From Conexibacter arvalis (GTDB lineage: Bacteria; Actinomycetota; Thermoleophilia; Solirubrobacterales; Solirubrobacteraceae), in contig NZ_JACHNU010000001.1 of NCBI RefSeq assembly GCF_014199525.1, positions 1,032,182 through 1,096,181 of the forward strand: a stretch of 64,000 nt of DNA. The letters are read 5' to 3'. Position 1 is the stretch's first letter; the number at the start of each line of letters is the position of its first letter. A program made the position numbers and the translations under genes. The notes beneath the pieces were generated by a model. The model did no database searches. It saw only the letters and a list, made by a program, of their open reading frames with translations, and had not been told where the DNA came from. This document shows positions 3,335-38,267 of the stretch, piece by piece.

Positions 3335-4672
3335 GTGACTCGGTTGGACAGGTTCCAGGAACCGGAGACGGCGGTCGTCGTCGGCGCCGGCGCCGCGGGG
3401 CTGTGGGCGGCGATCGCCCTCGCCCGCCGCGGCGTCCGCGTGACGCTGCTGGACGGCGCGGCGGTCGGCAGCGGCGCCTCCTGGGGGAACGCGGGCTGGC
3501 TGTGCCCGTCGCAGGCGGGGCCGCTGCCCGAGCCCGGGCAGATCGCCTACGGGCTGCGCTCGCTGGCCGACCGGCGCTCGGCGCTCTACATGGCGCCGAC
3601 GTCGATCCCGGGGATGGCGCTGTGGCTGGCGGCGTTCGCGCGCCGTTGCAATCGACGCGACTACGCCGCGGGCGTGCGGGCGATGTCGCATCTCGGCTAC
3701 CCGTCGTTCGCGCTCGTCAGCGCGCTGTTGGCCGAGGAGGAGGACGCCCCGGCCGCCGAGCGCTCGGGCCTGATGGTCGCCGCGGCCGAGGCCGCGCCCG
3801 TGCAGGCCTTCCTGGCGGCGGTCAGACCGCTGCGCGACCAGGGGCACGAGCTGCCCGATCGGCTGCTCGACGACGACGAGCTGGGCGAGCTGGAGCCGGG
3901 CCTCGTCGGGAAGGCGAAGGCGGTGCACGTCGCCGACCACTGGCAGGTCGATCCAGCCCGCTTCCTCCAGTACCTCGCGCGCCGCGCGCGAGCGCTCGGC
4001 GTCGACATCCGCGAGCGGTGGGAGGTCAGCGGCTTCGAGGTCGCCGGCCGGCGGGTGACGGCGGTGCGCTGCCTCAACGCGACGATCCCGGCCGACGCGC
4101 TGGTGATCGCCGCGGGCGCGGCGTCGCGCTCGCTCGCCGCCGACCTCGGCGTGCACCTCCCCGTGGTCGCCGGCAAGGGCTACAGCCTCGACGTGGTCGA
4201 GCCCGACTGGATGCCGCGGCACGCGCTGATGTACATGGACACCCACCTGGCCGTCTCTCCCTACGGCGACCGCCTGCGGGTCGCCGGGACGATGGAGTTC
4301 AGCCGCCGCCGCTCGCCCGATCCCGAGCGCGTCCGCGCACTGGAGGACGTCGCGCGCGACACCTTCGGCGGCTGGCGCGACGCCGCACCGGCCTGGATGG
4401 GCGCGCGGCCGATCGTCCCCGACGGCCTGCCGGTCGTCGGGCGCCTGCCCGGACTGGTGAACGCCTACGCCGCGACCGGCTACTCGATGCTCGGCATGAC
4501 CATCTCACCGGCATCGGGAGAGCTGCTGGCAGAGGAGGTGATGACCGGCTCCAAGCCGGCGATCGCCGCGCCGTTCGACCCCGCTCGCTTCGCGCGCTGG
4601 CTGCGGCCGCCGCTGCGGCGCTGCGGCGCCCGCCGAGCGACCGTCAGCACCCGAACCACGGAGACACGATGA
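3335..4672 (+). CDS. FAD-dependent amine/amino-acid oxidoreductase (DadA-like)
   Basis: A 445-aa flavoprotein of the DAO/DadA type. The N-terminal Rossmann motif VVVGAGAAGLWAAIALARRGVRVTLLD binds FAD, GASWGNAGW is the second conserved patch of the family, and the C-terminal GLVNAYAATGYSMLGMTISPASGELLAEEV closes the FAD site. Such enzymes oxidise an amine or D-amino acid to an imine. RidA, encoded next with a 4-bp overlap (ATGA), removes reactive imines or enamines, which supports that role. The GTG at 3335 gives the expected N-terminus; the ribosome site in front is weak. The substrate is unknown, but the surrounding importers suggest a polyamine- or peptide-derived amine. Confidence 0.85.
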   Translation: MTRLDRFQEPETAVVVGAGAAGLWAAIALARRGVRVTLLDGAAVGSGASWGNAGWLCPSQAGPLPEPGQIAYGLRSLADRRSALYMAPTSIPGMALWLAAFARRCNRRDYAAGVRAMSHLGYPSFALVSALLAEEEDAPAAERSGLMVAAAEAAPVQAFLAAVRPLRDQGHELPDRLLDDDELGELEPGLVGKAKAVHVADHWQVDPARFLQYLARRARALGVDIRERWEVSGFEVAGRRVTAVRCLNATIPADALVIAAGAASRSLAADLGVHLPVVAGKGYSLDVVEPDWMPRHALMYMDTHLAVSPYGDRLRVAGTMEFSRRRSPDPERVRALEDVARDTFGGWRDAAPAWMGARPIVPDGLPVVGRLPGLVNAYAATGYSMLGMTISPASGELLAEEVMTGSKPAIAAPFDPARFARWLRPPLRRCGARRATVSTRTTETR

Positions 4673-25125: not shown

Positions 25126-25131
25126 CCATGC

Positions 25132-25218
25132 CTGGGAGAGCGAGCGGCGGGCGCGCGTCTCGCGGACGGCGAGGCCGAGCACGCGGTGCTCGGCGCTCTG
25201 GACCGGGTGCGGGCTCAT
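25132..25218 (-). pseudogene. Truncated XRE-family regulator gene
   Basis: The first 29 codons (MSPHPVQSAEHRVLGLAVRETRARRSLSQ) match the start of the intact XRE regulator at 37084-37338, then homology stops abruptly at 25131 before the recognition helix. The remaining frame reads into the AbiE operator region. It starts 4 bp inside the 151-aa gene, as in the intact copy. It marks a recombination or deletion joint. Confidence 0.8.
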
Positions 25219-25670
25219 GGTCGCTCGTCCTCGGGCTCGAAGGCGGCGGCCTCGGCGCGCTCGCGACGGTAGCGGAGCATCGCCTCCTCGACGTCGGTGC
25301 CGACCAGTTCGACCAGCACGTCGCCGCAGACGGCGACCGTCAGCATCGCCTCCCACAGCGCCTGGCGCTCCTCGGCAGCCGTCTTGAGCTGGCCTTCGAT
25401 CTCCTCGCCGGCGCGTTCGTGCAGGCGGGCAAGCACGCGCATGAGCGGCGCCGGCTCCATCGTGATCGGGAACTCCTCGGCCGGGTCGTCCTCGCGCCAG
25501 CCGAGGTCGTCGAGCAGGCGCATGCAGCCCTCGTAGCGGCGGCGCAGCGACAGCGCGGTGCCCGACTGGTCCTCGTGGACGGCGAGGTAGATGTCGCCGA
25601 TGCCCGACAGCTCGGTGAGGAGCTGCTCGCGCAGGACGGCGCGCGTCGCGGGCTTGATCGTCAGCGCCAC
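25215..25670 (-). CDS. Hypothetical protein of the element end, copy 1
   Basis: A 151-aa, acidic, largely helical protein with no recognised domain. It differs from its copy at 37335-37790 at only about ten residues. Features include a positively charged start (MALTIKPATRAVLREQLL) and a C-terminal helix rich in Glu and Arg. In both copies it is the first gene read away from the tRNA end and overlaps an XRE regulator gene by 4 bp, so it is probably a conserved regulatory or maintenance gene of this element family. Confidence 0.65.
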   Translation of the reverse strand: MALTIKPATRAVLREQLLTELSGIGDIYLAVHEDQSGTALSLRRRYEGCMRLLDDLGWREDDPAEEFPITMEPAPLMRVLARLHERAGEEIEGQLKTAAEERQALWEAMLTVAVCGDVLVELVGTDVEEAMLRYRRERAEAAAFEPEDERP

Positions 25671-25966
25671 GCGACCACCGCCCTCCGGCCGCCATGGACG
25701 AGGACGTCAAGAATCTCCGCGCGCCAGGCGGCGCGTCGGGAACAATGGAAGTGCATCGAAGTCACCCTTCGGTGCCGGGCCCGGGGGTGTGCAACCACCC
25801 GCCGGGCCGCTTTACGGGATGGACAGCGGCGGCGACGCTAGGTGGAAGGGGCGCCGATGGCAAGGTCCCGTGCCAGCGGGCGCACCTCCGCGCGGTGCCG
25901 AATGCCAGCCGCGCGACGCGCGATCACACCTCAGCGCACCGGGCGGATCTCAGACGATCTGAGGCC

Positions 25967-26002
25967 ACGAGCAAGCGGAACTTGCGCTCCGTCTTGCGCT
26001 CT
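25967..26002 (-). terminator. Hairpin next to att, copy 1
   Basis: The arms pair around GCAAGCGGA and TCCGtCTTGC. The matching place in copy 2 (38086-38122) has a different sequence that also folds into a long hairpin, so structure appears kept while sequence changed. Read on the minus strand it lies downstream of the tRNA 3' end copy, as a tRNA terminator would. Confidence 0.45.
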
Positions 26003-26062
26003 GTAGCACCTCGGACCCTCTCCGAAAGCCGAAAAACACTGCCAGCACTGGGATCGCGGAAA

Positions 26063-26082
26063 TGGCGACTCCCAGACTCGAA
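26063..26082 (-). other. Left attachment site: copy of tRNA-Phe 3' end
   Basis: These 20 bases equal the last 20 of tRNA-Phe (38195-38214): part of the T arm, the acceptor arm and the discriminator base. The tRNA match stops at 26082, where the sequence departs from the T arm. This is the classic att core for a tyrosine integrase targeting tRNA genes and marks the left end of the 12-kb element. Confidence 0.88.
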
Positions 26083-26238: not shown

Positions 26239-28185
26239 TTATCTCGCTTGCGCCGGTCTGCGAGCAGGGCGTCTGCCCGTCGTGTGCGGTTTCGCGTCAT
26301 CGAGACACGCGTTCAACGCGGCGAACAGGCGCTCGGCTCGGTCGAGCAGGGCTCTCGGGAATGCTCCGTTGTTCCCGTTGAGTTGCAGAGCAGGCTTAAG
26401 GTGGTCGAAACCGTCGAAGTTCCAGCTCTTGAGGGTCGCCTCGACCCGCTTGGCCAACCGGGGGTTCCCGTTGCCATCGACCGCCTCGGGCGTGAGTGCG
26501 GCTGCCTGAGTGTTGGGATAGGCAGCCTTCACGAGATCGACATAGACGTCCGTTGGGAAGAGGTCCTCTATGTCTGCTTCCGCCTGTCCGCTATCAAGGG
26601 CGGAGGCGACGGAAACAATCTGATCTCTTGAAAGCTGCCCCGTCTCGACGAGACGAGCAACCTGCTCCTCATGCTTCGTTGAGCCGTCCAGCAAGACAGC
26701 CGTATGCAGCTGATTCGCGCCGTAGAGCCGAACGAATGTCTCGACCTTGCTGACGCCGCCAACAGGCACTATGACCCATCGAGGATCCAGGGACGTTCGT
26801 CCGGATTCCCGCAAGACTCGACTCCAAGCTTGCAGATAGAGCATGTCCGACGGACCTTCGACGAGCAGGGCGTTCGGAGCAACGAAGAGCGTCTGACCGA
26901 TGCTGTAACCCAATGCCGCCTGGAGCGGAAACAGCGTATCGCGATCAATGCGGACGACCTGGTTGCTTATCACCGTGCCGGCAGTCGTGTCGTCCGTAAC
27001 GATGCGCACCCGCTCCAGATGGTTCGCGTCAACCATGAAGGGCGAATGCGTCGTATACAGGACTTGCGCGACGGGCGCCAAGCGTTCTTCCACCACGCGG
27101 AGAAAGTCTGCTTGGGCCAATGCATGCAGGGCACTTCCAGGCTCGTCGAGAAGGAGGACAAGTGGCTTATCGCCCACCATGTCGCGGATCCTTGTGAAGT
27201 ACACAAGGAACGAGAAAAACCACCGGAATCCGTGAGACCCTTGGTCGATTGGGACCGTGACCCCTCGGCGACCCTTCGCACGGACGTGGAGATTGATGCC
27301 TGCGGCAAGTTCGCCGCTTTCGGTCGCGTCGGCGGCAGATTTGTCGAATTCGATGCTGCTGTCGCGGTTCTGCTGCCAGAACTCGAAAAGCTCATTGGTG
27401 ATCCGGAGGCCTGCAGCTTCCAGGCGGCTCTTCTGGCGCTCATAGCCAGCGTCGTCAGTAAACGACTCGGGAGGAGTGTTTGCGATATCGAGGAGTGCAA
27501 GGAAGGTCTGATCCTCGCGTTGCAAATCACCACCCTCACGACGCTCGATCAGGGCCGGCACGGAGACCCGTCCAGGCATCAGGCTGTACTCGCCAAAGTA
27601 GAGATATTTTGGCTCGTACGATGAGAAGAACGCGACCATCGAGCGTCGAAGATCGTCTTTCACGCTCCAGCCGAGCTGGGCGTTGTCGAGTCTCTCCTCA
27701 AGAGGGGTCGTAGCTACCGCAGCGCGGAGCCCCTCCAGCGTGGTGACAGCTCTAAGCTCATCCGGCGAGCCGATCCGTTCGACCAAGTGCTTTACCGCGG
27801 CGGCCTCGTCAGAATTGAATACCCAGACGTGGCTGTTGTCGTAGGCGATGCGCGTTCTCAAGTCCGACGTCAGCGCTCCCGCGCCGAAGCGGCCGGCGAA
27901 GAAACCCAGCTCCTGGTCGGTGAGGACATACGTGGCTTCGACGACAACCGGAGGCCTGCCTGCGTCGAGCTCGGCCTCACCCTCTCCGAGCACCCACCGT
28001 GGATAGTCTCGAACGAGATCCAGGCTTCGTCTGCCGTCAGCAGGATTCAGTTGTTCAAGGGCCGTAAGGAAGCTCGTCTTGCCCGATTCGTTCTTGCCGA
28101 CGAGACACGTGATGGCGTCGGTTTCTACGCGGCCGCCGTCCACGATCGAGCGAAAGTTGGTCACGTGGACGTCGGTCAGGCGCAT
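26239..28185 (-). CDS. OLD-family ATPase-TOPRIM nuclease
   Basis: A 648-aa protein. The ABC/SMC-like ATPase part has Walker A GKNESGKTS (Lys36) and a later PLVLLLDEPGSALH Walker B with signature region. The C-terminal TOPRIM nuclease part starts with ALLVEGPSDMLYL and continues with a VLLDGS strand. OLD proteins (P2 Old, GajA and relatives) cut DNA and act in phage defence. No GajB-like helicase or reverse transcriptase is adjacent, so it looks like a solitary class 1 OLD. ATG 28185 is chosen: GAGGAG lies 7 bases upstream and the following MRLTDVHVTNFRSI is the family's start. GC content is low for the window. Confidence 0.85.
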   Translation of the reverse strand: MRLTDVHVTNFRSIVDGGRVETDAITCLVGKNESGKTSFLTALEQLNPADGRRSLDLVRDYPRWVLGEGEAELDAGRPPVVVEATYVLTDQELGFFAGRFGAGALTSDLRTRIAYDNSHVWVFNSDEAAAVKHLVERIGSPDELRAVTTLEGLRAAVATTPLEERLDNAQLGWSVKDDLRRSMVAFFSSYEPKYLYFGEYSLMPGRVSVPALIERREGGDLQREDQTFLALLDIANTPPESFTDDAGYERQKSRLEAAGLRITNELFEFWQQNRDSSIEFDKSAADATESGELAAGINLHVRAKGRRGVTVPIDQGSHGFRWFFSFLVYFTRIRDMVGDKPLVLLLDEPGSALHALAQADFLRVVEERLAPVAQVLYTTHSPFMVDANHLERVRIVTDDTTAGTVISNQVVRIDRDTLFPLQAALGYSIGQTLFVAPNALLVEGPSDMLYLQAWSRVLRESGRTSLDPRWVIVPVGGVSKVETFVRLYGANQLHTAVLLDGSTKHEEQVARLVETGQLSRDQIVSVASALDSGQAEADIEDLFPTDVYVDLVKAAYPNTQAAALTPEAVDGNGNPRLAKRVEATLKSWNFDGFDHLKPALQLNGNNGAFPRALLDRAERLFAALNACLDDAKPHTTGRRPARRPAQAR

Positions 28186-28326
28186 GCTGGCACTCCTCGT
28201 TCGCTCGCCGCGTACTGCGGCCTGAAAATCGGGATGACGACAGACCGCAAGCTTGTCACGCCGGGCTGACGGGTATCGGCAGTTCCGGTGCGAGGCCACG
28301 TGGCTCATGCCGAGCGCGGGTCTGCG

Positions 28327-29556
28327 TCACTCCACCAACCGCAGCGGCACCTCTGCACCCGCACTCCGTGCCTCCCGCCCGAACGCCGCCGCCACCATCT
28401 CCTCCTCGTGCGGGCTCGGGGCGTAGTCCGCGTACCGCTGCGTCGTCGCAATATCGCGGTGCCCCATCCATTCCTGCAACGTCCGCATGGGGACGCCGGT
28501 GGCGGCCATGTGGGTGCCGAAGGTGTGGCGGAGGTCGTGGAAGCGGTGTCTGGTGTCGAGGCCGGCGGCTTTGAGGGTTTGCTGCATGCGGCGGTAGACG
28601 CTGCATTTGGCGAGGACGCCGCCGGTGGCGGGGTGGGCGAAGACGAGGTCGTCGGGGTCGCGGCGGTGGGTGCGGCCGTAGACGGTTCTCAGCTCGTCGG
28701 CGAGTCTGCTGATCATCGGGACCGAGCGGCTGGAGCGGCGGGACTTGGGTGTGCCGAATTCGCCGCGTGAGTAGTTGCGGCGGACGCGGATGCGGTTGGC
28801 GTTCCAGTCGACGTCGCGCCAGCGGAGGGCGATCAGCTCGCCTTGGCGCAGGCCGGTCATGACGGCGGTCATGTAGAGCGCGTGGTCCAGGTCCTGGCAG
28901 TCGCCGGGTTGGGTGTGGGCGAGGAGGCGGTCGACCTCGGGGAGGGTGAGGTAGCGGATCTCGGCGGGCTCGGGGATGGCGGGCAGTTCGATGCCGTGGC
29001 AGGGGTTGGATCTGACCCAGCGGCGCTGGGGTGTCATCGCGAAGTTGAAGAGCGCGGAGATGGTGCTGATGACGCCGCGGATGGTGCGTGGGGCGAGGTC
29101 CTTGGCTTCGAGGACGCTCATGAGGTCGAGGATGTCTTCGGGGCGGTATTGGTGGACGGGGCGGTCGCCGAAGAAGGGGACGATGTGGTTGCGGAGGTTG
29201 CAGTCGATGTTCTCGCGGGAGGCGCGTTTGCGGCCTCGGCGTTCTGAGTTCTTGATGTAGCGGGCGCCCAGTTCGGTGATCGTGAGCGGCTCGCCCATGA
29301 CGGGCAGGTCGTCTTCGGTTTCGAAGATGAGGCGGCGCAGCTCGACTTCGGCTTGGGCTTCGGTGAGGCCGGTGCGCTCGCCGCGTTGGCGTTTGGGGCC
29401 GAGGTGGCGCTTGACGCGGCGGCCGGCGGTGTACCAGGAGCCGTACCAGGCTTCGGTGCCGTCGGCGAGTCTGCGGACGAGGAGGCTGCCGGTGCCGGCG
29501 ATGCGTCTGACGGAGCGGACGGTGCGCTCGGGGTTGGTCAGGCTGGTGCGCGGCAT
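28327..29556 (-). CDS. Tyrosine recombinase (site-specific integrase)
   Basis: A 409-aa phage-type integrase: N-terminal DNA-binding region with GTEAWYGSWYTAGRRVKRHLG, a SAM-like core-binding domain, and a C-terminal catalytic domain. Catalytic residues are visible as TGLRQGELIALRW (Arg), HDLRHTFGTH (His-x-x-Arg), a GH pair and TQRYADY with the nucleophilic Tyr. The start at 29556 has GAGAGG just upstream. It should recombine the element's attP with the 3' end of tRNA-Phe. It lies 2.2 kb from the left att copy, with the OLD gene between. Confidence 0.93.
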   Translation of the reverse strand: MPRTSLTNPERTVRSVRRIAGTGSLLVRRLADGTEAWYGSWYTAGRRVKRHLGPKRQRGERTGLTEAQAEVELRRLIFETEDDLPVMGEPLTITELGARYIKNSERRGRKRASRENIDCNLRNHIVPFFGDRPVHQYRPEDILDLMSVLEAKDLAPRTIRGVISTISALFNFAMTPQRRWVRSNPCHGIELPAIPEPAEIRYLTLPEVDRLLAHTQPGDCQDLDHALYMTAVMTGLRQGELIALRWRDVDWNANRIRVRRNYSRGEFGTPKSRRSSRSVPMISRLADELRTVYGRTHRRDPDDLVFAHPATGGVLAKCSVYRRMQQTLKAAGLDTRHRFHDLRHTFGTHMAATGVPMRTLQEWMGHRDIATTQRYADYAPSPHEEEMVAAAFGREARSAGAEVPLRLVE

Positions 29557-29590
29557 CCGTTCCTCTCCGGGCTCGTGACGGCAGGGGCGA

Positions 29591-29620
29591 GCGTCCTCGC
29601 GCGCGGGTGCGCGAGGACGC
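29591..29620 (-). terminator. Hairpin between excisionase and integrase genes
   Basis: Perfect 12-bp inverted repeat (29591-29602 with 29609-29620) with a 6-base loop, 35 bases before the integrase start. It may terminate or attenuate the long transfer transcript so that integrase is made at a separate level. Confidence 0.55.
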
Positions 29621-29715
29621 ATGGCGGGCTGGGCCGGAGCGGCGCTGCTCCGGGGCTGGGACCGCGCGCCGCAGAAGCGGTGGCGGGGCGTGTCAAAGCT
29701 GCTTCGCGCACGATG

Positions 29716-29964
29716 CTAGGTGGAGCGCTTGCGGGTGCCAAGGGATGTGCCAGGACCCTGACGTCGGGTCGTGCACCAGGCGGCGAGCTGGCGGCGCTCG
29801 AAGCGGCCGTAGCGGCCGAGACGGATGTGCGGGATGCGGCCTGAGCGTGCCTGGCTCAGCACCCAGGAGGGTGGGACGCTGAGCAGCCGGGCGGCCTCCT
29901 CGGCGTCGATCAGCTCGCCGTCCAGCTCCTCCCCGCCGTGGGGCTCTCGGGTCGGGGCGGTCAT
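29716..29964 (-). CDS. Excisionase-like small helix-turn-helix protein
   Basis: An 82-aa protein with a MerR/excisionase-type helix-turn-helix: LIDAEEAARLLSVPPSWVLSQARSGRIPHIRLGRYGRFERRQLAAWC. Proteins of this size and fold next to tyrosine integrases act as directionality factors that promote excision. It starts inside the stop of the upstream replication-relaxation gene (4-bp overlap) and ends 160 bases before the integrase start. Confidence 0.82.
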   Translation of the reverse strand: MTAPTREPHGGEELDGELIDAEEAARLLSVPPSWVLSQARSGRIPHIRLGRYGRFERRQLAAWCTTRRQGPGTSLGTRKRST

Positions 29965-30863
29965 CGGTCGAGCCAGCCGACCGCTCTGGCGGGGTCGTGG
30001 GTGGTCTTGAGGATCGGCGCGAACGGGCCGCGGTCGATCAGGTCGGCGAGCAGGCAGGCGGCGATCTTCACGGCGGGCGTCGCGGTGAGCTGAGGGTTGG
30101 TGCGGCAGAGCGCGATCGCGTTGCTGCGGCGGCGCTCGAGCGCGGGTCGGTCGCGGCCGGTGAGGACGAGCAGGACGCCGGGGAAGATCGCGTAGCTGTG
30201 GGTCCACAGCGGTCTTGGCCGGTCGGTCGGGCCGGTGGGCGGGAGGGTGTGGTGGTAGAGGGTGGCGTAGCGGGCGAGCTTTGCGGCGAGGTCGTCGACG
30301 GGCATCGTCGCGCGGTCGAGTTCGATGAAGCGGTAGTGGAAGGTGGTGGTGCCGTCGGGCTGGTTGCGCTGGTAGGTGAGCAGCGCGTCGGCGATCAACT
30401 GCTCGGGCGTGCGGCGGCCCGGGGCGGGTCCGATCGGGTGGGCGATCTCGTGGCGCCAGGCGAGCGGTCCGCATTCGTCGCCGCGGGCGCGGGCGGCGCG
30501 CACGAGCGCGAGCCCGACCTCGTTGACGGCGAGGGTGTGGTGGCGCAGCGGCCCGGTCGCCTGCGCGTGGGTGATCTGCTTGCGGCGCCGCTCGGGCCGC
30601 GAGGGGATCAGCTCGATCGCCTCGGTGCCCTGCTCGGTCAGGAACCACAGCCCGAGCCCGCCGGGCAGTCGGGCGGCGTCGACCAGCTCGGCGGCGTGGA
30701 GTCTGCGCAGGACGTGCCGCGTCCAGTGGGTGGTCTTGTCCGGGGTGTGGAGTTCGTGGATCTGGAGGGTGGTGAGGAGCCGGTGCTGCGCGAGGCTCTC
30801 CATGATCGGGACCGCGACCGGCGGCAGCGGCCCGGTCGCGGTGTCGGTGACGGTGACGATCAC
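29961..30863 (-). CDS. Replication-relaxation family protein
   Basis: A 300-aa protein matching the Replic_Relax family of actinobacterial plasmids and integrative elements. The N-terminal winged helix (LLTTLQIHELHTPDKTTHWTRHVLRRLHAAELVD, then LWFLTEQGTEAI) is followed by HHTLAVNEVGLALVRAARARG and the acidic, nuclease-like FHYRFIELDRATMP region. Family members sit beside TraG/FtsK-like ATPases and are thought to start plasmid transfer or replication. The overlaps with both neighbours (4 bp each) show one transcript. Enzymatic activity is not established. Confidence 0.8.
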   Translation of the reverse strand: MIVTVTDTATGPLPPVAVPIMESLAQHRLLTTLQIHELHTPDKTTHWTRHVLRRLHAAELVDAARLPGGLGLWFLTEQGTEAIELIPSRPERRRKQITHAQATGPLRHHTLAVNEVGLALVRAARARGDECGPLAWRHEIAHPIGPAPGRRTPEQLIADALLTYQRNQPDGTTTFHYRFIELDRATMPVDDLAAKLARYATLYHHTLPPTGPTDRPRPLWTHSYAIFPGVLLVLTGRDRPALERRRSNAIALCRTNPQLTATPAVKIAACLLADLIDRGPFAPILKTTHDPARAVGWLDR

Positions 30864-33520
30864 TGCGGCGCCTCCGCTTGGATCGTCACCTGCTCCTCCG
30901 CCGGCGCGTCCGCTCGCTCGCCGGCCGGCGCGAAGTGCGCCGCGATCTCATCGTCCAGCGTGGCGAGACGGTCGAGCGTCTCGGCGATCGGGATGCCGTG
31001 CGCGGCGGTGAACGGAAGCGGACCGGCGGGGTAGGTCGTCGGTTCGGGGTAGAGGTCGCTGACGGGGACGCCGTGGAGGAGGAACGGCGGGGTTGGGTGG
31101 CCGTCGAGGGTGACGGAGGCGAGGAAGGTGAAGCGGTCGAGGTTGACGATCGTCTGCGGCTCGATTCTGCCGGCCCATTCGCGTGCGATCTGGTTGGCCG
31201 CGGAGGCGTCCAGCGCGGTGGTGAGCAGGTGGGAGCGGTTGGTCGTGATCGCGTCACGGGTCGCTCTGGTGAGCCGCTCGGGGTTCTGGTTGAAGAGGAA
31301 CCCGCGGATCCCGTACTTCGCGGTCTGCTCCAGCAGCGCCGCGAGGTTGCCCGAGGTCGCGCCGTCGTAGATCTGGATCTCGTCCAGGAAGACGTGGAAC
31401 GGCTTGTGGGCGGACGGGTGGAGGGCGGCGCGCTGCTTGGCGGTGTGGAGCAGGTCGTAGACGAGGAAGTTCGCCAGCAGCCGGTCGCGGCTCGATCCCG
31501 AGCCGGGGCAGGCAAGCACGATCGCGCCCGCGTCCATCGCGGCGCCGACGTCGTAGGCGGACTGCGGGTTGCCGAGGACGGCGGCTGCGGCCGGGGCGGT
31601 GCGCAGGCGGTCGATCAGGTTGGTGACCGGCGTGATCGCCTCGGGGCTCAGGCGCGCGAAGCGCTGCTCGAAGAACTGCCGGACCGGTGGTGAGACGTGC
31701 GGCAGGACGGTGGCGCGCCAGTCGTCGTCGCCGAGCAGGGTCGGGATCTGGAAGACGGTCGGTGCCTTGGCGGCGGGGAGCCTGTCGGCGAGGTCGGCGA
31801 GCGCGTGGGCGGCTTGGGCGGTGAGGTTGATCGCGCGGGCGTTGACCTCGTCCCACCGCATCGTGGACGAGAACGCGTCGACGATCGCGTCGACCCGCTG
31901 CTGGGTCGTTCGGTGTCCGGTCCTGGCGAGCGGGTTCCAGCCGATCTGCGGTCCGGCGTGGTGGTCGGTGAGGTCCAGCTCGATGACCCGATCCAGCTGG
32001 TCGCCGAGGTGGCGTTTGATCTTCTCCAGCGCGTCGGCGTGGGGGTCGAGGAAGAAGCAGCCGTGGCCGTTGCGCGCGAGGTGCAGGAACTGGCCGATCC
32101 CGGTCTCGGTCTTGCCGAACCGCGAGCGGCCCGCGACGTAGGTGAAGAACGACCCCCGGAGCGGCACCCCCACCAGCCGCTCACCCGCCCGCGCCGAGAC
32201 GACGCGGCCGAGCGGCAGCAGGTCCGGCTGATGGTCGAAGGTCGGCAGCCCGCGCGGCGCCGCCGGAACCCGCCCGCCGGAGCGGACGACGTTCTCGGAC
32301 TCGCAGCTCTTGGTCGGCGGCTTGAGCAGCGCCGCGACCTCCTCGGCGTTGACCAGCCGCTTGCGGGCAGGGGCGAACAGCCCGCCGGCGACACGCGCGT
32401 CGAACCGTCCGCGGCGCCACGGCGCGTCGGCGCCGGCGAACCCGAACGGGACGCGCTGCCCGACGACGCGGAAGTGGTTCTCGCCGTCGAAGGCGCGGAA
32501 CGCGGCGACGAGCGCCCCGACCTGCTCGACCGCCCGCCCCGCGAGCGGGCTCGACGCCCGCACCAGCACCTGCACGCCGAAGAGCGGCAGCGGATCGCCG
32601 AGCTTCCCTGCCAGCGACTTGTGCTCGGCGCGCCGCGCGACCAGCTCTGCTCGTGTCGGCGGGGTGCGGTGAGCGGGCTCGCCGCGCATGATCTCGCCGA
32701 GCGTCTTCTGCTCGCGGCGCTCCTCACGCCGCGCCTTGCGCAGCAGCTTGCCCTGCAGCCGGCGCCGCTCCGACGGCTTCAGCGGCAGCAGGTCGACGCA
32801 GACCTCGGCCGACTCGTCCTTGGGGATCAGCGGTTCGAGCGCCTGCGCGAACCCGGTCAGCGGGTCCGGATCGACGCCGGTCTCCAGCAGCGGGTGACGG
32901 CTGTCGCGGGCGAGGATCAGCTCGGCGCGGGCGACGTGGGGCTCGGCGTCGACTTGGGTGCTGTTCGGCGCGACCGTGGCGTGCTGGGCGGGCGGCGTGG
33001 GGGCCTGGGTCGGGTTCGGTTCGGGTGGGCGTGCCGGGGCGGGCGCGGGCAGCTCGCGCAGCTCGACGCCGCCGTAGCTGCCGACGCCGACCTCCAGCGC
33101 GCGGCGGGCGTGCCGGGGCAGCTCGACGCTGTAGCGCAGCCGCCCGTCGGGATCGTTGTCGAGCCGCACGCGGACGGCGTGCGCGCGCTTTGCCAGCAGC
33201 CCGCCCGTCGCGCGCCGCGCGGCGGTCAGGGTGGAAGCGAACGCGAGCACCGGTCTGATCTCCGGCGCGAACGAGTCCGCCGGCACCAGCTCCAGCCGCA
33301 CCCGGTCAGCCAGCGCACGGCGCTCCAGCACACAACGGACGAGGAGCACCGCGACGAGGCCCGCGACCAGCACACCGGCGAGCACGGGCACGAGCGGAGA
33401 GCGAGCAAGCTCGACCGCTGCGTCCAGCACCTCCCCAGCCATAGCATTGACCACGATCAGCCCGACCACGGCCGCCATCGCGACCATGACCATCATGTCC
33501 TTCGGTTCAGTCGGTCTCAA
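30860..33520 (-). CDS. TraG/VirD4-like coupling ATPase
   Basis: An 886-aa protein. Two N-terminal membrane segments (VMVAMAAVVGLIVVNAMA and VLAGVLVAGLVAVLLVRCVL) are followed by a long variable region and an ATPase domain with GRSRFGKTETG (Walker A), CFFLDPHADALEKIKRHL, and FHVFLDEIQIYDG (Walker B). The late part resembles the TraM-recognition region of coupling proteins (LLEQTAKYGIRGFLFNQNPERL). It probably docks element DNA at a conjugative channel supplied by another element. TTG 33520 is taken as start: GGAGG lies 6-7 bases upstream, and the codon overlaps the stop of a small upstream frame. Confidence 0.85.
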   Translation of the reverse strand: MRPTEPKDMMVMVAMAAVVGLIVVNAMAGEVLDAAVELARSPLVPVLAGVLVAGLVAVLLVRCVLERRALADRVRLELVPADSFAPEIRPVLAFASTLTAARRATGGLLAKRAHAVRVRLDNDPDGRLRYSVELPRHARRALEVGVGSYGGVELRELPAPAPARPPEPNPTQAPTPPAQHATVAPNSTQVDAEPHVARAELILARDSRHPLLETGVDPDPLTGFAQALEPLIPKDESAEVCVDLLPLKPSERRRLQGKLLRKARREERREQKTLGEIMRGEPAHRTPPTRAELVARRAEHKSLAGKLGDPLPLFGVQVLVRASSPLAGRAVEQVGALVAAFRAFDGENHFRVVGQRVPFGFAGADAPWRRGRFDARVAGGLFAPARKRLVNAEEVAALLKPPTKSCESENVVRSGGRVPAAPRGLPTFDHQPDLLPLGRVVSARAGERLVGVPLRGSFFTYVAGRSRFGKTETGIGQFLHLARNGHGCFFLDPHADALEKIKRHLGDQLDRVIELDLTDHHAGPQIGWNPLARTGHRTTQQRVDAIVDAFSSTMRWDEVNARAINLTAQAAHALADLADRLPAAKAPTVFQIPTLLGDDDWRATVLPHVSPPVRQFFEQRFARLSPEAITPVTNLIDRLRTAPAAAAVLGNPQSAYDVGAAMDAGAIVLACPGSGSSRDRLLANFLVYDLLHTAKQRAALHPSAHKPFHVFLDEIQIYDGATSGNLAALLEQTAKYGIRGFLFNQNPERLTRATRDAITTNRSHLLTTALDASAANQIAREWAGRIEPQTIVNLDRFTFLASVTLDGHPTPPFLLHGVPVSDLYPEPTTYPAGPLPFTAAHGIPIAETLDRLATLDDEIAAHFAPAGERADAPAEEQVTIQAEAPQ

Positions 33521-35748: not shown

Positions 35749-36651
35749 CTACGCGATCAGGGTCAACTGCTCGGCGTAGAGCCGATCCAGGTGGCCGATG
35801 ATCTCGGCGCCGCTGTCAACGACGTAGGAGCCCGCCCGCTGTGCCTGGGTCTGCGCCCATCTGTGTTCAAGCAGCGCTCTGAGCAGGAAGACCGGACGGC
35901 CATGCTCGCGTGCGAGTCGCGCTTGCATGCGGGCACCGCTGGTGTGCGATGCCTCGACCACGACCGTCGCGCGCGAGAAGCCGGACATGACCGCGTTGCG
36001 CTGCGGGAAGGTCCAGCGACGCCCTTCCTGGCCGGGCCAGAACTGGGAGATCACGGCATGCTCGCGGCCGATCTGCTCCTGAAGTCGTGCGTTCGCTCTC
36101 GGGAAGCTGTGGCGCAGGCCGGTGCCGATGACGGCGACCGTTCGGCCGCCGGCCTCAAGGGCGGCGGTGTGGGCGGCGGTGTCGATGCCTGCGGCGAGGC
36201 CGCTCACGACGACGTACTCGGCAGCGACCAGCTCGCGGGCGATCTCTCGTGCCTTCTCCAGGCCTTCGGGCGAGGCGGAGCGTGTGCCGACCAGCGCGAC
36301 CGAGCGCTCGTCGTGCTCCTGCAGGCGCCCGCGGACGAACAGCGCCGGCGGGCGGTCGTAGACCGTCCGGAGGTTGGCGGGGTAGTCGTCGTCCAGGACG
36401 GTCACGACGCCGAAGCCCTCCCGCTCCCACGCGTGGACGTGCTCCTCGAGCTGGTCGAGCGTCACAGGTCTGCGATCGATGTCGAAGAGGCGGTCGGCGC
36501 TGCTGGCGTCGAACTGCTCCAGCAGTCGCAGCGCGCTGCCCTCTTCCTCAATCGCGCCGGCCAGCCGTCTGGGCGGCATCGCTCTCCGCGCCATCAGGGC
36601 GAGAACCGCCGCCGTCTCGCGGCTGCTCATGAGAGATCGATCGTCGAACAT
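35749..36651 (-). CDS. DprA-family protein, ShosA-like antitoxin candidate
   Basis: A 300-aa DprA/Smf protein. The Rossmann-like core shows VALVGTRSASPEGLEKAREIA, VVSGLAAGIDTAAHTAALEAGGRTVAVIGTGL, WTFPQRNAVMSGFSRATVVVEASHTSGARMQARLA and GRPVFLL, all DprA signatures. DprA loads RecA on single-stranded DNA in transformation, but in ShosTA a DprA homologue acts as antitoxin to the adjacent phosphoribosyltransferase. Start chosen at 36651 (MFDDRSL); 36630 is an alternative. The frame is open further upstream, but that part overlaps the palindromic operator block, so it is unlikely to be coding. Confidence 0.75.
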   Translation of the reverse strand: MFDDRSLMSSRETAAVLALMARRAMPPRRLAGAIEEEGSALRLLEQFDASSADRLFDIDRRPVTLDQLEEHVHAWEREGFGVVTVLDDDYPANLRTVYDRPPALFVRGRLQEHDERSVALVGTRSASPEGLEKAREIARELVAAEYVVVSGLAAGIDTAAHTAALEAGGRTVAVIGTGLRHSFPRANARLQEQIGREHAVISQFWPGQEGRRWTFPQRNAVMSGFSRATVVVEASHTSGARMQARLAREHGRPVFLLRALLEHRWAQTQAQRAGSYVVDSGAEIIGHLDRLYAEQLTLIA

Positions 36652-36771
36652 GTGTTCGTAGGGTACCTCGGCGATACGCAAGACACTACCCGAGGGATGG
36701 GTGAAATCTTCGCCTGCCGACCGGACGCGACGGACAAGGCTGAAGGCGGCATCGCGTGTTCCGGAAATCGC

Positions 36772-36813
36772 CCTGTTCCGCTCTGCACGGAACAGGCCGA
36801 TTCCTGGAACAAG
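36772..36813 (-). promoter_or_regulatory. Palindromic operator block before the DprA-like gene
   Basis: A perfect 9-bp inverted repeat (36772-36780 with 36788-36796, loop 7) is followed by a second TTCC/GGAA pair near 36801. A further TTCCGGAA lies at 36759-36766. Bases 36775-36813 match 25012-25050 in front of the AbiE-like operon. It sits 11 bases downstream of the RHH stop and about 125 bases upstream of the DprA-like start, so it is probably bound by a regulator encoded in the element. Confidence 0.6.
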
Positions 36814-36823
36814 CACGCGCCGG

Positions 36824-37084
36824 TCACGCGTGTGGCTGCGCGCCGCGCGCCAGCCGCCCCACGACCCGCGCCATGCGCTCACCGCGGTCGGCGACCGCCT
36901 CGACGCGCTGCTCCAGGCGCGTGAGGCGGTCGGTGTGGTCGAGGTGGACGAGGCGGTGGTGGACGGCGCCGCGGATGAACTCGGCGTGGGCGATGCCGAG
37001 GCGGTGGCTGTGGTGCTCGATCGCGGCCCACATCTCGGCGTCGAAGCGGGCGGTGGTGGTGTGGAGGGTGCCGGGCGCGGTCAT
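36824..37084 (-). CDS. Ribbon-helix-helix-like small DNA-binding protein
   Basis: An 86-aa protein. TTTARFDAEMWAAIEHHSHRLGIAHAEFIRGAVHHRL has the strand-helix-helix pattern of RHH (CopG/Arc) regulators. The C-terminal half is a predicted amphipathic helix (DRLTRLEQRVEAVADRGERM) suited to dimerisation. It starts at the XRE stop (one-base overlap) and ends 10 bases before the operator block, making it a good candidate for the protein that binds it. The gene is absent from the second copy of the element end. Confidence 0.65.
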   Translation of the reverse strand: MTAPGTLHTTTARFDAEMWAAIEHHSHRLGIAHAEFIRGAVHHRLVHLDHTDRLTRLEQRVEAVADRGERMARVVGRLARGAQPHA

Positions 37085-37338
37085 CAGCCGGTCTCCTGGC
37101 GGCGTTGCTCGTAGAGGGCGAACAGCTCGGAGAGCGGGAGGGTGAGGCCGTCGGAGAGCTGGAGGAGGATCCTGAACGTGGGGTTGATCTCGCCGCGTTC
37201 GATCGCGCCGATGTAGTTGCGGTGCAGTCCGCTGGTGAACCCGAGGCGCTCCTGGGAGAGCAGGCGGCGGGCGCGCGTCTCGCGGACGGCGCGGCCGAGC
37301 ACGCGATGCTCGGCGCTCTGGACCGGGCGCGGGCTCAT
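37084..37338 (-). CDS. XRE-family transcriptional regulator
   Basis: An 84-aa single-domain helix-turn-helix protein: RAVRETRARRLLSQERLGFTSGLHRNYIGAIERGEINPTFRILLQLSDGLTLPLSELF, the Cro/C1-type fold. It starts within the last codons of the 151-aa gene (ATGA). It is the intact counterpart of the truncated copy at 25132-25218. Such proteins usually control element excision or cargo expression. Confidence 0.85.
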   Translation of the reverse strand: MSPRPVQSAEHRVLGRAVRETRARRLLSQERLGFTSGLHRNYIGAIERGEINPTFRILLQLSDGLTLPLSELFALYEQRRQETG

Positions 37339-37790
37339 GGGCGCTCGTCCTCGGGCTCGCAGGAGGCGGCCTCGGCGCGCTCGCGACGGTAGCGGAGCAT
37401 CGCCTCCTCGACGTCGGTGCCGACCAGTTCGACCAGCACGTCGCCGCAGACCGCGACCGTCAGCATCGCCTCCCACAGCGCCTGGCGCTCCTCGGCGGCC
37501 GTGTCGAGCTGGCCCTCGATCTCCTCACCGGCGCGTTCGTGCAGGCGCGCGAGCACGCGCATCAGCGGCGCCGGCTCCATCGTGATCGCGAACTCCTCGG
37601 CCGGATCGTCCTCGCGCCAGCCGAGGTCGTCGAGCAGGCGCATGCAGCCCTCGTAGCGGCGGCGCAGCGACAGCGCGGCGCCCCACTGGGCCTCGCCGAC
37701 GGCGAGGTAGATGTCGCCGATGCCCGACAGCTCGGTGAGGAGCTGCTCGCGCAGGACGGCGCGCGCCGCGGGCTTGATCGTCAGCGCCAC
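37335..37790 (-). CDS. Hypothetical protein of the element end, copy 2
   Basis: A 151-aa helical, acidic protein, nearly identical to the one at 25215-25670; the substitutions cluster around residues 32-38 and near the C-terminus. It heads the operon with XRE and RHH genes. No domain is recognised. Conservation in two elements with different cargo suggests a function in element biology, such as attachment-end control, rather than in one particular defence system. Confidence 0.68.
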   Translation of the reverse strand: MALTIKPAARAVLREQLLTELSGIGDIYLAVGEAQWGAALSLRRRYEGCMRLLDDLGWREDDPAEEFAITMEPAPLMRVLARLHERAGEEIEGQLDTAAEERQALWEAMLTVAVCGDVLVELVGTDVEEAMLRYRRERAEAASCEPEDERP

Positions 37791-38085
37791 GCGACCACCG
37801 CCCTCCGGCCGCCATGGACGAGGACGTCAAGAATCTCCGCGCGCCAGGCGGCGCGTCGGGAACAATGGAAGTGCATCGAAGTCACCCTTCGGTGCCGGGC
37901 CCGGGGGTGTGCAACCACCCGCCGGGCCGCTTTACGGGATGGACAGCGGCGGCGACGCTAGGTGGAAGGGGCGCCGATGGCAAGGTCCCGTGCCAGCGGG
38001 CGCACCTCCGCGCGGTGCCGAATGCCAGCCGCGCGACGCGCGATCACACCCCAGCGGATCCAGCGGATCTCAGACGATCTGAGAC

Positions 38086-38122
38086 GACGAACAACCGGAA
38101 TCTGTCTTCCGGTTTGTCGTCT
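38086..38122 (-). terminator. Hairpin downstream of tRNA-Phe
   Basis: Arms ACCGGAA and TTCCGGT around a 6-base loop, extended after a 2-base mismatch by five further pairs. It lies about 75 bases beyond the tRNA 3' end on the minus strand and may end the tRNA transcript. The copy at 25967-26002 keeps a hairpin with changed bases. Confidence 0.5.
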
Positions 38123-38194
38123 GTAGCACCCCGGCTGGCACCTCGGACCCTCTCCGAAAGCCGAAAAACACTGCTAGCACTGGGATCGCGGAAA

Positions 38195-38267
38195 TGGCGA
38201 CTCCCAGACTCGAACTGGGGACACCACGATTTTCAGTCGTGTGCTCTACCAACTGAGCTAAGTCGCC
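38195..38267 (-). tRNA. tRNA-Phe (GAA)
   Basis: The 73-base minus-strand sequence folds as a full cloverleaf: acceptor GGCGACT/AGTCGCC, D arm GCTC/GAGC, anticodon arm CACGA/TCGTG with loop CTGAAAA (anticodon GAA), 5-base variable loop and T arm CCCAG/CTGGG with TTCGAGT. The discriminator is A; CCA is not encoded. The 3' end serves as the integration site of the neighbouring element, and the gene remains intact. Confidence 0.97.

Follow-up and report, generated by a model that had tools for sequence, protein, structure and literature searches.

A 284-bp block that occurs twice, base for base, in a 64,000-nucleotide stretch of the Conexibacter arvalis genome (contig NZ_JACHNU010000001.1; the whole stretch is hereafter the window) is proposed to carry a small antisense RNA gene belonging to an integrative element inserted at tRNA-Phe. 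By all sequence signs, 66 nt within the block constitute a structured small RNA gene on the + strand, predicted here and new to description. This gene faces the point at which translation of the element's first gene begins, and our preferred reading, to which we assign a probability of roughly three in four, is that the RNA acts in cis as an antisense repressor that keeps the element off. The structure, strand, promoter, terminator, overlap with the start site and element context were all assessed by sequence comparison, and the coordinates are collected in Table 1.

The presence of a folded RNA was deduced mainly from compensatory base changes. An earlier note on the window, made from its letters, had pointed to a GC-rich inverted repeat (GGGTG...CACCC) that might form an RNA fold and had proposed a search for base-pair covariation; the repeat proved to be real and forms hairpin 2, and strong covariation was found in both hairpins. 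The seed alignment of 18 copies contained two helices with compensatory changes (covariation of 0.196 versus 0.105 in shuffled alignments, 0/500). For 70 distinct copies, the alignment of which was fitted to the covariance model and is hence biased toward pairing, 16 of the 20 pairs had changed on both sides, covariation was 0.450 versus 0.167, and 98% of cells were paired. Searches of Rfam, whether at gathering or at more permissive E-values, returned no match to the small RNA. The two 3' arms could in principle pair with each other instead (CGGTGC with GCACCG), but this arrangement was dropped, as several copies are unable to form it.

The direction of transcription was deduced from the flanks of the hairpins and from the mismatched pairs. 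Of the 70 copies, 67 had a −10 element (TACNNT or GACAAT) 6-8 nt ahead of hairpin 1, compared with 1-13 of 70 at other offsets, and the G of an extended −10 was present in 76%. The T content just after hairpin 2 was 80, 79, 56, 51, 53, and 50%, falling to about 20% further on. Non-Watson-Crick pairs, when read on the + strand, comprised 92 G-U and 3 A-C; half of this G-U count is supplied by the start-codon pair, which has another explanation, and without that pair the counts were 44 and 3. The fixed −10 element, the T-run after hairpin 2, and the G-U bias therefore point to a short + strand transcript that starts from a promoter of its own and ends at an intrinsic terminator.

On the complementary strand, hairpin 1 contains the signals for translation of the facing gene. 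A start codon was found inside it in 62/70 copies, and in 29/32 of a distant subset, while a Shine-Dalgarno sequence of at least 4 nt was present in 56/70 versus 4-30/70 at other offsets. The start codon was kept where the stem sequence of hairpin 1 had changed. The opposing − strand promoter starts approximately 15-38 nt past the end of the small RNA, and TANNNT was enriched there in 48 of the 70 relatives. The genes that start inside hairpin 1 include an XRE regulator (locus L132), a tyrosine integrase (L144), Cas1 in all three of its loci (L110, L111, and L117, equivalent to L150-L152), and a homologous helix-turn-helix protein in 9 of 10 loci from a genus that is probably Streptomyces; the helix-turn-helix protein facing the RNA is also present in a Streptomyces phage. 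At a further locus (L135), the stop codon of a leader open reading frame (ORF) overlaps the XRE start. Coding sequence starts had been set at the same base independently by the depositors of phage Ponzi and by the annotation of a Kitasatospora plasmid.

The position of the Shine-Dalgarno sequence and start codon within hairpin 1 could also be accounted for by the leftward − strand mRNA alone, the structured leader of which would hide both in hairpin 1 and serve as a translational switch, with no separate RNA. The opposing promoter does precede the hairpin, and the − strand folds too. This explanation was nevertheless deemed unlikely, as it accounts neither for the fixed-spacing −10 element on the other strand, whose phase versus the hairpin shifts by one base (a gap of 6 in 37 copies and of 7 in 26), nor for the T-run after hairpin 2 and the preference for G-U over A-C on the + strand.

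Under the preferred antisense reading, an RNA of about 65 nt would start at the base of hairpin 1 from its own extended −10 element and stop at hairpin 2 and the T-run. It would be transcribed against the leader of the leftward operon of the element, with perfect complementarity to that 5' leader and to the start site; judged at the level of sequence, the gene has the opposite-strand location and full complementarity of a cis-encoded antisense RNA. Once paired with the leader, the RNA would prevent the first gene from being translated; in the window this is a short leader ORF, to which the 151-aa gene is coupled, with XRE after them. The integrated element would thereby stay silent, even in the face of transcripts reading through from the adjacent tRNA promoter. 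The production of the RNA, its pairing, and the repression are what we infer from this arrangement. In 15 copies the tRNA 3' end lies 145-257 bp downstream of the RNA, always in the same orientation, with the tRNA transcribed toward the operon. A silencer acting at the RNA level would therefore also reach read-through transcripts that a DNA-binding repressor cannot stop.

The loops of hairpin 1 differ between the copies resident in this genome, as expected if each RNA recognizes its own leader. These differences speak against a small RNA whose main action is in trans, whether its partner is a host or helper target or a protein, as does the facing start codon, which stays in hairpin 1 despite stem change and so ties the RNA to its own complement. 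Action in trans was accordingly considered decidedly improbable, even though the stem sequences are unusually conserved across the phylum and the module occurs with unrelated recombinases.

Several observations weigh against the cis-antisense reading. Sequence conservation is seen in the stems but not in the loops, and protein binding to the stems could be its cause. The opposing promoter is unrecognizable in about a third of copies, and the start codon is absent from hairpin 1 in 7-8 of the 70, such that not every copy overlaps a start site. Moreover, the integrase of some Actinomycetota families is found downstream on the RNA's own strand; the antisense target there is therefore another gene, and the controlled gene is not always a recombinase. 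A leader peptide as the sole reason for conservation was rejected from the same absence of the start codon and from the differing peptides that follow.

A function at the DNA level was also weighed, with the motif serving as an attachment site, transfer origin, single-strand origin, or operator and its hairpins forming in single-stranded DNA or being bound as a palindrome. The distance of 145-257 bp from tRNA attachment sites in many copies would suit such a site, G-T pairs stabilize single-stranded DNA too, and the element encodes a Replic_Relax protein. It was judged very improbable because the attachment core is separate, because the motif accompanies tyrosine integrases, serine integrases, and Cas1 at differing distances from the attachment site, and because the constraints on promoter, terminator, and start codon would not be expected. 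The attachment site was rejected as the meaning of the block, its core being the tRNA end; the two copies of this 3' end (26063-26082 and 38195-38214) lie nearby but outside the block.

The identity of the two blocks was traced to a separate cause. Exact comparison gave 284 matching bases with no extension at either end, just as the earlier note had reported, and the adjacent 151-aa gene was indeed diverged by several percent. The block is the unbroken middle of an approximately 950-bp repeat of 94% identity, the differences of which are clustered: about 5% in 25131-25646, none in 25647-25930, dense in 25931-26008, and one in the last 74 bp. When the 46 differing positions were placed at random 100,000 times, a 284-base gap never arose. 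That note had offered constraint as one reading of the identity, adding that free substitution in homologues or a break in identity at the ends of a conversion tract would speak against this. Over most of the block, identity to relatives proved to be only about 40-60%, and good conservation was confined to approximately 25731-25810 (about 80 bp); identity also ends sharply on both sides. Given this free variation among relatives and the sharp ends, the 284-bp identity is best and most simply explained by recent homogenization (gene conversion) between two tandem elements, rather than by constraint. An assembly artefact would be an alternative source. Selection maintaining all 284 bases along the whole length, a view prompted by exact identity adjoining a gene with about 5% difference, is scarcely credible and is refuted for all but the central 80 bp by the free substitution in relatives. 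Apart from the attachment site, the candidates put forward earlier thus each describe a part of the block: a functional RNA (66 nt, with promoter, terminator, and covariation in the hairpins), a regulatory leader on the other strand (ribosome-binding site and start codon), and gene conversion (sharp ends).

Table 1. Features of the small RNA, the repeat, and the integrative element, in window coordinates
Feature	Position	Strand	Basis or remark
Predicted small antisense RNA, left copy	25753-25818	+	Covariance model match, 65.1 bits; fold −38.9 kcal/mol, z −3.4
Parts of RNA, left copy	Hairpin 1, 25753-25775; hairpin 2, 25778-25808; T-run, 25811-25813	+	
Predicted small antisense RNA, right copy	37873-37938	+	Covariance model match
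−10 element AACAAT of small RNA	25741-25746 (left); 37861-37866 (right)	+	Fixed spacing in relatives
Opposing promoter TTGCCA-17-TAGCGT of leader/operon	25835-25863 (left); 37955-37983 (right)	−	Read from sequence
Shine-Dalgarno GAAGGG (25765-25770) and start codon ATG (25754-25756), inside hairpin 1	25754-25770	−	Right copy at +12120
31-codon leader ORF	25661-25756 (left); 37781-37876 (right)	−	Stop overlaps start of 151-aa gene
284-bp block, left copy	25647-25930		Exact comparison; probable homogenized tract
284-bp block, right copy	37767-38050		Exact comparison
Full repeat, left copy	25131-26082		Older or remnant element end; 94% to 37251-38214
Full repeat, right copy	37251-38214		End falls within tRNA-Phe
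151-aa gene, left copy	25215-25670	−	No known family
151-aa gene, right copy	37335-37790	−	No known family; copies 94% identical as protein
XRE regulator of 12-kb element	37084-37476	−	Pfam HTH_3; left copy truncated at 25131
DprA-like gene inside element	35749-36882	−	
Replic_Relax (replication-relaxation) gene	29961-30863	−	
ORF with excisionase-like HTH_17 domain in C-terminal part	29716-30648	−	
Tyrosine integrase	28327-29622	−	Pfam Phage_integrase
OLD-like AAA/TOPRIM nuclease	26239-28308	−	Cargo
Distal attachment-site copy (tRNA-Phe 3' end)	26063-26082		Repeat comparison; compare three attachment-site copies in tRNA-His array
Intact tRNA-Phe	38195-38267	−	3' end is insertion site; synteny with three relatives begins here

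The last 20 bases of the repeat are the tRNA-Phe 3' end, and the chromosome to the right of tRNA-Phe is collinear with three genomes of the genus (G087, G209, and G182), similarity beginning at the tRNA. Because the repeat ends in the tRNA 3' end and synteny begins at the tRNA, the region is read as two related integrative elements in tandem at tRNA-Phe, with only the end remaining of the left one. The direct repeat of the tRNA 3' end flanks an integrase-encoding segment, as in tRNA-targeting integrative elements, and all genes of recognized family in the 12-kb element between the repeats are on the − strand. An 886-aa protein (30860-33520), encoded just upstream of Replic_Relax in the operon, had no Pfam or NCBIfam match and could be a transfer or replication protein. 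The OLD-like nuclease adjoins the integrase and is typical of defence-type cargo. A tandem pair was also found at tRNA-His in a putative Conexibacter woesei genome (G087, locus L140), where each element has the RNA motif, XRE, and an integrase and where three copies of the tRNA 3' half, the attachment site, lie at oriented positions 4314, 10452, and 18458. At another locus (L141, 12644-13985), the 151-aa protein family is represented by three tandem copies between the RNA motif and XRE.

The distribution of the family within Actinomycetota was surveyed with a covariance model built from the 18-copy seed, the specificity of which rests on the recurrence at new matches of features that it does not model (the −10 element, start codon, and facing gene). 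Nine copies were matched in this genome. Within the order, 110 of 232 genomes had a match; the figures were 53 of 396 for genomes sampled across the phylum, 24 of 39 for one distant family, and 21 of 121 for a large-genome genus that is probably Streptomyces. In this genome (G000), three of the nine copies sit no more than about 410 bp from a contig end (C1:258, C1:1837440, and C2:807199), which suggests assembly breaks at such element/tRNA junctions.

The motif was also sought by other means. With blastn, plasmids and phages yielded one weak match for the motif, in a Kitasatospora plasmid, later confirmed by the covariance model; the other blastn searches of plasmids and phages gave nothing useful. 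A first, strict motif pattern had no match on viral contigs, and a looser one matched a single contig. A loose pattern scan of genome contigs returned mostly chance matches, the exception being L061 (Conexibacter sp. CPCC 206217). On a putative viral contig (L193, 4098-5611), the RNA motif adjoins a large serine recombinase. In phage Attoomi (L206, 3211-3286), a weak 15-bit model match falls exactly at the start of an annotated helix-turn-helix gene and is probably a degenerate RNA copy.

The Cas1 loci that face the RNA (L150, 7680-14733; L151, 3340-6176; L152, 7284-9785) yielded no CRISPR-like array, and a CRISPR-related RNA was ruled out for them on the lack of such a repeat array. A Streptomyces casposon-like island has been reported (Krupovic et al. 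2014, PMC4046053), in an account whose excerpted text mentions no antisense RNA. A family B DNA polymerase match in the neighbourhood of Cas1 was found only in L150, and was weak and below the curated cut-off. It is possible that the three loci are casposons in Actinomycetota.

The closest functional parallel is presumably with antisense RNAs of other mobile elements. In IS10, RNA-OUT, an antisense RNA of about 70 nt over the ribosome-binding site and start codon of the transposase gene, blocks translation. The predicted RNA would likewise be a mobile-element antisense RNA with an opposing promoter that covers the translation start of a first or mobility gene, the latter being Cas1 in its three loci and an integrase, the former being the leader ORF with the 151-aa gene in the window. 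In contrast to RNA-OUT, it has two hairpins and a terminator instead of one long stem, lacks an Rfam match, and is conserved as one structural family across Actinomycetota, and the facing genes encode XRE, integrase, Cas1, or a phage helix-turn-helix protein rather than a transposase. The P4 CI and P1 c4 RNAs, also about 70 nt and from tRNA-integrating or temperate elements, silence an early operon by leader pairing. These, however, are processed from the same leader transcript, whereas the RNA described here has its own opposing promoter and terminator. Counter-transcribed RNAs (ctRNAs) of plasmids (CopA, RNAI, the ctRNA of pT181/pIP501, and RNAII of pMV158) share the opposing promoters, the stem-loop antisense to the first-gene leader, and the varying loops, but the elements considered here are integrated and the facing gene in the window is not a replication initiator. 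The helix-turn-helix protein facing the RNA in one Actinomycetota genus may be replication-related. None of the Rfam models for plasmid ctRNAs and phage C4/CI antisense RNAs was matched by the small RNA. Actinobacterial tRNA elements of the pSAM2 type resemble the present element in their attachment site at a tRNA 3' end, tyrosine integrase, excisionase-like helix-turn-helix protein, and XRE; the present element differs in having Replic_Relax, the 886-aa protein of no known family, and an RNA at the tRNA-proximal end.

We further hypothesized, tentatively, that a single portable antisense-RNA silencer, comprising promoter, two hairpins, terminator, and embedded target start, may have been captured by unrelated Actinomycetota elements (tyrosine- and serine-recombinase elements, temperate phages, and Cas1 elements) and may serve them as a common dormancy or immunity switch against tRNA read-through. 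To our knowledge, antisense control of mobile elements is known from a few model systems, the RNAs of which are unrelated to each other. Here, a single structural RNA family recurs throughout a phylum ahead of differing recombinases, regulators, and phage genes; in Conexibacter, a soil lineage, one genome can hold as many as nine copies. The family provides a marker for finding integrative elements and suggests how elements sited at tRNA genes may stay silent despite read-through.
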